Notes under the pieces: generated by a model
The model's input: the letters and a program-made list of their open reading frames with translations, nothing else
Databases searched by the model: none
Told to the model about the DNA's origin: nothing
Origin: Methanobrevibacter sp.
GTDB taxonomy: Archaea; Methanobacteriota; Methanobacteria; Methanobacteriales; Methanobacteriaceae
Assembly: GCA_022775905.1 (NCBI GenBank)
Contig: JALFJX010000022.1
Location: forward strand, 1 to 41,584
DNA length: 41,584 nt
Direction of reading: 5' to 3'
In this document: piece by piece, positions 2,988 to 31,578 of the stretch
Layout of the letters: every line of letters starts with the position of its first letter
How positions within the stretch are numbered: position 1 is the stretch's first letter
Translations under genes and position numbers: made by a program

Positions 2988-4149
2988 ATGCCAATAATAT
3001 CCGGTGTAGTTGGACATTTATCTATTGTAACAACTGTATGTTCATTGATTTTTATATTGATTTTAATGATATATTATTCAAGAAAATGGGTTAAAAAAGA
3101 TCTGGACAGTCAAATATTAAAACAAGAAGCAGTTAACTTACAGAATACAATTGAAAATGTACAATCAATATCAAAAATAGCTATTTTGAATGGTAGTCCT
3201 GGTAAATTCAACTGGACTACTGAAATATTTGAAATTTTAGAAATTGAATCAACTGATGGTCTGATTGATTATAATTTACTTTTAAAATATGCTACACAAG
3301 ATTCAGTGGATTTAGTGTATGAAAAATGGGAATCTGCAAAGGATGCTGGACCTGGGGATGTAATAAATTTTGAAATAACATTAACAATTACTACTGGAAA
3401 AGGAACTAGAAAATATCTCAAATATTTCTCAAGTAATTATATTGAAACAGATTTTGAATCAAGAGTAATTAACGCATTTGTTGAAGATATTACTGATGAA
3501 ATAGTAGCTTAAAAGAATTTGGAAAAATCTTTGGAAAATCAAAAGATATTAATTAAAGAGGTTCATCATCGTGTTAAGAACAACCTTCAGCTTATCAGAA
3601 GTTTCATCAGTCTAGAAAAAAGATTCCATCCGGGGGATTATGAGACAATTCTCAATGTTACTGAAAAGCGTATTAATTCATTGTCTTCAATCCATACCAG
3701 AATTTACAATCAGGATGATATGAATTATATTTTGATGCATCCATTTTTAAATGAATTGGATGATGCTTTGATGGAATTTTCACCATATACTGATATTAAT
3801 TTCAATAGTGATGTTCCGGAGTATTTAGCATTCGCAATTGATACAGTTACTCCATTAACATTTAATTATTAATGAATTAACCACAAATTCTTTTAAATAT
3901 GTATTTGATGATGCATCTGAAAATAAAACAATTTTTAAATCCTTGAAATTATTTGAAAAAGATGGTGAAGATTTCGTCAGGTTTGAATATAAAGATAATG
4001 GTAGAGGATTAAAAGATGAAAATGAATTTATTACATCAAAAAGTTTAGGTTGGCAAATCATCGGTTCATTATCTGGTCAAATGGATGGTGAATATGAAAT
4101 AATCAATGAAAATGGATTTGGATTTATTTTGACATTTCCAATAAGATAA
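2988..4149 (+). pseudogene. Membrane PAS-HisKA_2 sensor histidine kinase, broken
   Basis: Three collinear pieces make one kinase. 2988-3512 gives a membrane helix (about residues 7-28) and a PAS-like sensor domain. 3519-3872 gives the HisKA_2 dimerisation region with the phospho-acceptor motif KEVHHRVKNNLQ. 3865-4149 gives the HATPase domain with an N box (INELTTNS), a DNGRGL ATP-lid motif and a SLGWQII box. TAA at 3510-3512 separates the first two pieces in the same frame. An extra A at 3864-3865 shifts the frame just before the N box. A GGGAGG lies about 20 bases before the start. With two independent lesions the gene is very likely inactive. The second frame alone could make a small HisKA fragment. 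Confidence 0.75.
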
Positions 4150-4159
4150 TTTTAAAAAA

Positions 4160-4343
4160 ATAAAAAAGTGAGAGATGGTGTTTTTAATAATTTATGTATA
4201 GGAAAATTTTTTTGAGGTTGATTTTGGTTTTATCAAAAATCCCATGATCAATTTTTCTCTATTGTGTGTTATAATGGAGGAAAGCATGTTTCATGTTTTT
4301 TGATTAATTTGCCATCTCTGAAAGATACAAATTTTGTACTTTC
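4160..4343 (-). ncRNA. Candidate small non-coding RNA, copy A
   Basis: On the minus strand a TATA box (TTTAAATA, 4372-4365) lies about 25 bases before a predicted 5' end at 4343. The predicted transcript opens with a hairpin (4343-4320). An 8-base arm AGAGATGG follows directly and is complementary to CCATCTCT about 130-140 bases later (4170-4177 on the plus strand). A U-rich tail TTTTTTATTTTTTT (4167-4154) then ends it. No reading frame is conserved between the two copies: short frames begin at ATG but diverge in sequence and length. Expected length is about 185 nt. I know no family that it matches. The alternative is a dead promoter-gene remnant. Confidence 0.5.
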
Positions 4344-4364
4344 AATTAAAACATAGGTAATTAA

Positions 4365-4372
4365 TATTTAAA
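4365..4372 (-). promoter_or_regulatory. TATA box for ncRNA copy A
   Basis: TTTAAATA on the minus strand, preceded by a purine-rich AAAAGC (BRE-like). Its centre is about 25 bases from the predicted RNA start at 4343. Confidence 0.5.
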
Positions 4373-4469
4373 TGCTTTTGGTAACCATTCACTCACCATA
4401 AGTTGTTGATGATAAAAATTGGGGACAATGCATATTATTGAAAATTGTTAGTAATGATCTTTGTAAAAA

Positions 4470-4695
4470 AAATAAAAAAGTGAGAGATGGTGTTTTTAAT
4501 AATTTATGTATAGGAAAATTTTTTTGAGGTTGATTTTAACTTAACGCTATATCAAAAAATTATTCTAAAAAATCCCATGATTAATTTTTATTATTATAGT
4601 GTGTTATAATGGAGAATAATAATGTTTCATGTTCATTTTTCTTAATTTCTTGATTTAATTTGCCATCTCTGGAAAGATACAAATTTTGCATCTTC
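4470..4695 (-). ncRNA. Candidate small non-coding RNA, copy B
   Basis: Same architecture as copy A: TATA box at 4723-4716, predicted 5' end at about 4695, a 5' hairpin (4695-4672) of up to 11 pairs, the closing arm AGAGATGG, the matching arm CCATCTCT (4482-4489 on the plus strand) and a U-rich tail (4479-4465). The 5' hairpin differs from copy A by changes that keep or improve pairing. The interior keeps blocks such as CTCCATTATAACACAC and AACCTCAAAAAAATTTTCC. It is divergent from the HxlR gene at 4819, so the two may be co-controlled. Confidence 0.5.
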
Positions 4696-4715
4696 AATTT
4701 AACATGGGCAGTTAG

Positions 4716-4723
4716 TATTTAAA
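4716..4723 (-). promoter_or_regulatory. TATA box for ncRNA copy B
   Basis: TTTAAATA on the minus strand, preceded by AAAAGAA. It is placed exactly as in copy A. Confidence 0.5.
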
Positions 4724-4730
4724 TTCTTTT

Positions 4731-4770
4731 GGTAACCTTTTGCTCACCATAAATCGGTAACTATATATGT
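4731..4770 (+). promoter_or_regulatory. Divergent control region of the HxlR gene
   Basis: GGTAAC occurs twice (4731-4736 and 4756-4761), the second directly abutting a TATATATG TATA box for the rightward gene. The spacing of about 25 bases resembles paired half-sites of an autoregulated dimeric repressor. This is an inference from position and repetition only. Confidence 0.35.
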
Positions 4771-4818: not shown

Positions 4819-5190
4819 ATGAATGCAAATGCTCAACTAATGAATTTTCCAATTGATAATGTTATACAATTAATTAGGAAAAAATGGGTTGTTCAAATCA
4901 TAAACGATTTGTTCTTTGGTAAAACTCGTTTCCATGAATTTAAAGAAAATAAACCTAAATTATCCAACAGAGTCTTAAGCAGTTGTCTTAAAGACATGGA
5001 AGATAATGGTTTAATTAAACGTATTGCAGACAAATACGACAAAAAGAATGTCAGGTATTATCTAACAGAAAAAGGTCAATCATTAAATAAGATTATTTAT
5101 GAAATGGCAATTTTCAGTGTAGATACAGAAAATTACACGGACAAAACAAAAACTGAACTCAAATCGGTTTTCAAGGAAAAATTATTATAA
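4819..5190 (+). CDS. HxlR-family winged-helix transcriptional regulator
   Basis: At 123 residues it has the usual length for the family. The order is typical: helix with KKWVVQIINDLFFG (W is the hallmark of the HxlR domain), FHEFKENKP, recognition region LSNRVLSSCLKDMEDNGLI, then a wing with VRYYLTEKGQSL. HxlR proteins are DNA-binding regulators, often controlling neighbouring redox or detoxification genes. GGAGG lies 7 bases before the ATG, and a TATA box is at 4762-4769. It stands alone, divergent to the repeated RNA element, and is closed by a strong terminator. Its targets may be the flavoprotein and nitroreductase genes downstream, but no shared operator proves this. Confidence 0.85.
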   Translation: MNANAQLMNFPIDNVIQLIRKKWVVQIINDLFFGKTRFHEFKENKPKLSNRVLSSCLKDMEDNGLIKRIADKYDKKNVRYYLTEKGQSLNKIIYEMAIFSVDTENYTDKTKTELKSVFKEKLL

Positions 5191-31440: not shown

Positions 31441-31578
31441 ATTTATTCATCTTTTTTCTTTTCTTTTTTTATATTCTTAGTATTTATATTCTAATTTTCA
31501 ATTAATTTTAAATAATATCATTTTTAAAATAATACTAACTACTCTTTGAGTGTTGATTAATTAAAAAAGGTGTTAATA

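Follow-up and report, generated by a model that had tools for sequence, protein, structure and literature searches.

Two genes for a structured RNA beside an HxlR-type regulator gene in Methanobrevibacter, very probably descended from a RiPP-precursor transcript

Results

The window, a stretch of 41,584 nt from Methanobrevibacter sp. (genome G000), carries on its plus strand a gene for an HxlR-type winged-helix regulator (4819-5190; PF01638, E = 1.2e-19), which is the proposed controller of the RNA promoter described below. Divergent from this gene lie two minus-strand copies of one element, copy A and copy B, neither of which overlaps a coding gene. A first-pass annotation made from the sequence alone had described both copies as having a TATA box, a 5' hairpin, a pair of closing arms and a U-tract, and all of these were found where it had placed them; the arms, said to close 130-200 bases, enclose 133 nt in copy A and 172 nt in copy B. 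To this description we add inverted repeats 5' of both TATA boxes, three more helices, and open reading frames (ORFs) in the homologues of other species. Read along the minus strand, each copy consists of GGTGAG-N6-GGTTACC, AAAAG, TTTAAATA, 20-odd bases, the hairpin GAAAG..CUUUC, AGAGAUGG, an interior, CCAUCUCU and the U-tract.

In copy A (all coordinates in this paragraph are on the minus strand), the operator-like inverted repeat GGTGAG-N6-GGTTACC, which is kept in 38 loci, occupies 4380-4397, immediately 5' of the TATA box TTTAAATA at 4365-4372 (sequence and promoter alignment). The 5' hairpin P0, GAAAG..CUUUC, is at 4320-4343 and is found when the copy is folded alone as well as in the consensus. 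Covariation and the consensus fold identify the 5' strand of the closing stem P1, AGAGAUGG (4312-4319), which in homologues with an ORF is where the Shine-Dalgarno GGAG stands, and both strands of P2, CAUGA (4291-4295) and UCAUG (4243-4247), while the 3' strand of P1, CCAUCUCU (4171-4178), is supported by covariation. Between the P2 strands there is an unpaired CCUCC that is anti-Shine-Dalgarno-like (4276-4280; motif count in homologues). P3 pairs UUUUUGAUA (4231-4239) with UAUUAAAAA (4181-4189), as read from the sequence and by homology to P3 of A4/A6, and the copy ends in a U-rich terminator recognised from its sequence (4154-4168). The corresponding parts of copy B are the operator-like inverted repeat that separates the promoters of the RNA and of the HxlR gene (4731-4748; promoter alignment), the TATA box TTTAAATA (4716-4723; sequence and promoter alignment), P0 (4673-4695; fold), P1 with AGAGAUGG (4663-4670; fold and covariation) and CCAUCUCU (4483-4490; covariation), P2 with CAUGA (4627-4631) and UCAUG (4576-4580; both by fold and covariation), the P4 hairpin UAGC-GUUAA-GUUA (4537-4550; covariation across the family), and a U-rich terminator (4466-4480; sequence).

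The two copies are ~78% identical over the aligned body. Their last 72 nt are identical (4154-4225 and 4466-4537) while the rest is clearly different, which suggests gene conversion or strong constraint. P4 is deleted in copy A, in which P1, P2 and a nine-pair P3 are kept, as read from the sequence; folded singly, copy A is modestly stable (z = -2.1) and copy B clearly so (z = -4.0). The copies share no common ORF, in line with the earlier statement that no reading frame is conserved within the window. A search of their own genome returned no third copy, and a mobile or dispersed repeat can be set aside, there being two copies here and one syntenic locus per relative. Copy A is adjoined by a sensor histidine kinase gene represented by three ORFs (2988-3512; 3519-3872, HisKA_2; 3943-4149); it is interrupted between 2988 and 4149 by one stop and one frameshift, and is either a pseudogene or an assembly error.

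No family of Rfam release 15 reaches its gathering score anywhere in the window, and no named RNA family matches, in keeping with the annotation, which knew of none. The covariance-model search of other Methanobrevibacter genomes that it had proposed did produce homologues with compensatory changes in their stems: a model of the 3' domain built on 12 sequences (R1) matches one locus each, the serS-HxlR locus, in 34 of 67 genomes. The HxlR orthologue is divergent and within ~0.6 kb of the RNA in 31 of these 34, the exceptions being two genomes in which the contig is broken (G078 and G081) and one with a weak R1 match (G007). A DNA search of relatives likewise detected, in several genomes, the RNA with its promoter in divergent orientation to the same HxlR gene. 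Across the order, of which 150 genomes were searched, the element is confined to one genus of 19, and at least one of the Methanobrevibacter relatives that carry it comes from a ruminant. In three genomes (G023, G077 and G084, loci L078, L089 and L090), the RNAs closely resemble those of the window clade and the HxlR proteins group elsewhere, a mismatch for which RNA transfer or a tree artefact is possible.

The promoter is intact in 38 of 38 loci. Its regions align without gaps, with GT.A, GTTAC, AAAA and TTTA invariant, and the 5' hairpin follows GTTAC at 39-41 nt in every locus except that of G004 (35 nt). The operator-like repeat, GTRAC-N6-GTTAC in general form, is fixed upstream of the RNA, between its TATA box and the HxlR gene promoter, and is common to both genes. 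Such a position between divergent promoters is the usual place of an autoregulated divergent operator, and from position and conservation we infer that HxlR binds this repeat and controls the RNA promoter.

The family fold comprises the 5' hairpin P0, the closing stem P1, P2, P3 and P4, a hairpin with a variable stem and a conserved AUURA loop. P1 is AGAGAUGG/CCAUCUCU in the window clade and GGAGAUGG/CUAUCUUC, among others, elsewhere; P2 is CAUGA/UCAUG in the window, CAUGGCC/GGCCAUG in G023, CAUGGUC/GACCAUG in G077 and AUGAAA/UUUCAU elsewhere; P3 is GGAAUUUUUUGA/UCAAAAAAUUCC. Helix counts were taken from a hand-anchored segment table because MAFFT, applied to the six full-length copies that are closest, misaligned their 3' ends. 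In counts that ignore ancestry, P1 is paired to 95.6% and shows 25 double-changed cells, spread over 4 pairs, and P4 has 54 such cells in 6 pairs across the family, P2 has 12 and P3 has 8; these values were reached in 0 of 1000 shuffles for P1, P4 and P2 and in 1 of 1000 for P3. The strongest single structural result is the consensus fold obtained by unguided RNAalifold from 13 ORF-less sequences alone, which recovers P0, P1 (spanning ~350 alignment columns), P3 and P4, with 36 pairs of which 11 are double-changed. Applied to the window clade, RNAalifold returns P0 and P2 only, because MAFFT misaligns the 3' end. Some relatives have an extra small stem closing a C-rich loop (ACCAU/AUGGU, ACCCU/AGGGU or ACCCAUU/AAUGGGU), which the window clade does not have. 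The copies are thus real beyond chance, their promoter and helices being kept in dozens of genomes with compensatory changes, and those in the window combine compensatory structure, their own promoter and U-tract, and no conserved ORF.

In seven genomes (G086, G025, G070, G072, G018, G085 and G071), a Cys-rich "TSCCIDTT" peptide is encoded by an ORF within the same transcript, as in G070 (MAKMYRINDWNENEKFSLRKIAQDV...TSCCIDTT...). The Shine-Dalgarno sequence of this ORF, GGAGAUGG, is at the same time the 5' strand of P1, which allows it to pair with the 3' end of the RNA that carries it, and the WNENE codons of the ORF form the 5' strand of P2. Nearby in several genomes are a second HxlR gene, a second precursor with ACGSD repeats, and genes for a PNPOx/ferredoxin protein, a Zn-dehydrogenase-like protein and a radical SAM/SPASM enzyme with a match to NCBIfam TIGR04340, "ACGX system" (E = 7e-174). 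Each of the seven genomes that carry the SCCIDTT ORF at this locus has TIGR04340. Pfam and NCBIfam searches with the peptides gave no family above cut-off, and it is by their context that they would be RiPP precursors. The ACGX-system RiPP clusters L143 (G018), L141, L144 and L145 have two precursor types, with ACGSD and SCCIDTT repeats, two HxlR genes adjoining the precursors, and PNPOx/ferredoxin and Zn-dehydrogenase genes.

The precursor ORF, a leader followed by Cys-X2-Asp repeats, is absent from the window and from the whole of genome G000. The TIGR04340 radical-SAM gene has no match in G000 and is absent from most ORF-less genomes; the RNA therefore persists without the pathway. Its homologues represent different stages of ORF loss: G078 has a full-length pseudogene; G001, G016, G067 and G002 have lost the start codon and retain WNENE codons or remnants (GGAAUGAAAAUGAA in ORF-less copies); and no trace of the peptide core is left in the window clade, where the ORF-less form is common to six species, or in G023, G077 and G084. 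A sister subfamily has the ORF in G014, G035 and G009 and none in G032 and G061; its members (L012 of G032, L132 of G061, L014, L016 and L017) have their own 3' domain with a CAAAACAAC..GUUGUUUUG stem and a C-rich loop, and most end in a GGGGAU..AUCCCC terminator. Mapped on the HxlR tree, presence and absence of the ORF require 8 changes, at least 4 of them forced by well-supported branches. A serS tree made to polarise the losses did not resolve the species tree, and the number of losses is approximate. The changes are best read as losses and not gains because coding remnants remain in ORF-less copies. Where the ORF has been lost, the stretch that once coded can no longer be aligned while P0, P1, P3 and P4 are still paired, and P1 has been re-paired in several ways: AGAGAUAG/CUAUCUCU in G024, AAAGAUAG/CUAUCUUU in G015, GAAGACAG/CUGUCUUC in G028 and AGAGAUGG/CCAUCUCU in the window clade.

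The loops of the RNA are C-rich and G-poor. CCUCC, which is the complement of the full archaeal Shine-Dalgarno sequence, occurs in 20 of the 27 RNAs that lack the ORF, whereas shuffled sequences gave a mean of 1.5, in a comparison that ignores ancestry; copy B carries CUCC in its place. When the copies were paired with 40 leaders in the window, the best was not significant after correction. The leader at 31570 is the best partner of both copies (P ~0.003 each; 1 of 40 leaders), a match that is not kept in relatives and was put down to chance. The HxlR mRNA was rejected as a direct target, its leader ranking 9 and 24 of 40 (P = 0.20 and 0.76). Together with the absence of overlap with any coding gene, this leaves the antisense role that had been suggested for the element without support.

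Discussion

The first important finding of this study is that two genes in the window very probably encode a structured RNA whose ancestor was a RiPP-precursor transcript. The proposal of a non-coding RNA gene beside HxlR is borne out by covariation, fixed promoter spacing and synteny in ~34 species, but the idea of a purely non-coding family fails, since some homologues have a peptide ORF. As for what had been named as evidence against such a gene, a reading frame does occur in part of the homologues (seven species and three members of the sister subfamily), and the stems have not lost their complementarity. It follows that the RNAs in the window come from a RiPP-precursor mRNA and have lost its ORF. 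The resemblance is detailed: the ACGX precursor mRNAs (TIGR04340), as represented by the SCCIDTT transcripts of G018, G086, G071, G070, G072, G085 and G025, have the same locus, operator, TATA box, 5' hairpin, P1, P2, P3, P4 and U-tract. They differ from the window copies in that the latter have no precursor ORF, and G000 lacks both the peptide and the radical-SAM enzyme.

We propose that each copy encodes a structured RNA, ~185 or ~225 nt long, whose transcription runs leftward from the TATA promoter, and that the inverted repeat 5' of this promoter would also serve the divergent HxlR-type gene. In the mRNA form, P0 would be followed by a Shine-Dalgarno sequence paired with the 3' end of the transcript (P1), by an ORF running through the 5' strand of P2, and by a P3/P4 3' domain with C-rich single strands. 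In the window and many other species, the ORF would have been lost with retention of the operator, P0, P1, P2, P3, mostly P4, and the U-tract. The RNA may then be made when HxlR permits and act alone in trans, its C-rich, anti-Shine-Dalgarno-like loops possibly pairing with ribosome binding sites and masking them. The scaffold is kept after loss of the ORF, where a mere messenger should decay, and the RNA therefore most likely works on its own; we consider it probable that it is functional without the peptide. That the ORF-less RNA, derived from an ACGX RiPP-precursor mRNA, most likely acts as a trans-acting regulator under HxlR is our preferred reading, to which we assign a probability of roughly 0.55. 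More tentatively, and at rather less than even odds, the family as a whole might be a genus-wide archaeal dual-function RNA, a RiPP mRNA with a regulatory UTR scaffold from which the peptide was repeatedly discarded and in which P1 was re-paired after loss of the Shine-Dalgarno sequence.

The most serious challenge to this reading is that the ORF-less copies might be decaying UTRs of a lost peptide gene, without function, for whose disappearance too little time has passed. Recent pseudogenes do exist (G078), P4 is already gone from copy A, and the RiPP genes are absent from most ORF-less genomes. We nevertheless regard mere decay as unlikely, because the former ORF has become unalignable in the very molecules in which P0, P1, P3 and P4 stay paired, P1 takes on different but still matched pairs when the constraint of the Shine-Dalgarno sequence is lifted, the six species of the window clade share the ORF-less form, and not one of the 38 promoters is damaged. 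The fold might instead be a platform for a protein such as HxlR, a ribosomal protein or an RNA-binding protein, with the RNA titrating it or feeding back on the regulator, and the permanent pairing with the HxlR gene, the conserved apical loop AUURA of P4 and the conserved unpaired blocks speak for it; however, the fold has no known protein partner and HxlR family proteins are DNA-binding, which makes this less likely again.

Two further explanations dispense with a regulatory RNA, and both seem very improbable. A very small peptide of the type MNMxxHFPxN could still be encoded (AUGAACAUG..CAUUUUCC), its start region being conserved in G010, G029, G004, G074, G023, G077, G084 and copy B, but the length of the frame varies from ~10 to 36 codons with no conserved stop, no Shine-Dalgarno sequence precedes the start, the first AUG is missing in copy A, and the same bases form P2 and descend from WNENE codons in another context. 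Least probable of all is a purely cis-acting element, in which the HxlR promoter is tuned by the DNA itself or by divergent transcription and the RNA product is irrelevant: sharing of the operator between the divergent promoters would fit, yet this would explain neither the compensatory changes, which lie 150-250 nt downstream of the promoter, nor why there is a second copy that has a complete promoter and terminator of its own.

The preferred reading, a trans-acting regulator derived from a peptide mRNA, has parallels in known systems. RNAIII of Staphylococcus aureus, a dual-function RNA with the delta-hemolysin ORF, has been reported to mask the Shine-Dalgarno sequences of its targets with C-rich loops (PMC2837412). 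Like the Methanobrevibacter RNA, it is long and structured, includes the ORF of a small peptide, and has long-range stems as well as C-rich, unpaired stretches that can pair with Shine-Dalgarno sequences; the comparison is of how the two may work and does not imply homology. Unlike RNAIII, the Methanobrevibacter RNA is archaeal, has a single HxlR gene beside it instead of the agr quorum system, and has as its peptide a presumed radical-SAM RiPP precursor that was repeatedly lost. In Methanosarcina mazei, sRNA162 uses an unstructured linker to mask the ribosome binding site on the mRNA of a transcription factor, and its 5' end targets a cis-encoded neighbour mRNA (PMC3510493). sRNA162 is likewise a methanogen small RNA, with a masking logic comparable to the one proposed here, but of the two it is the only one whose function is known, and the window RNAs have neither gene overlap nor significant pairing with the leader of the neighbouring regulator.

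Few archaeal small RNAs have a known structure, regulator or evolutionary history. The present family, absent from Rfam, has a fixed regulator partner in a genus that is important in gut and rumen, and its members form a natural coding-to-non-coding series, with the ORF intact, a fresh pseudogene, reduced to a remnant or absent, in which the transition from peptide mRNA to regulatory RNA becomes testable. It also provides a candidate link between the ACGX RiPP system and HxlR control; our search of the open literature found no paper on this RNA or on the ACGX system. The exact repeat-plus-TATA pattern occurs at three places in the window's own genome, two of which are copies A and B. The third (L134, G000:C9:293088-293115) lies near a gene resembling a cobalamin-pathway methylase, and is possibly another member of the HxlR regulon or a chance match.
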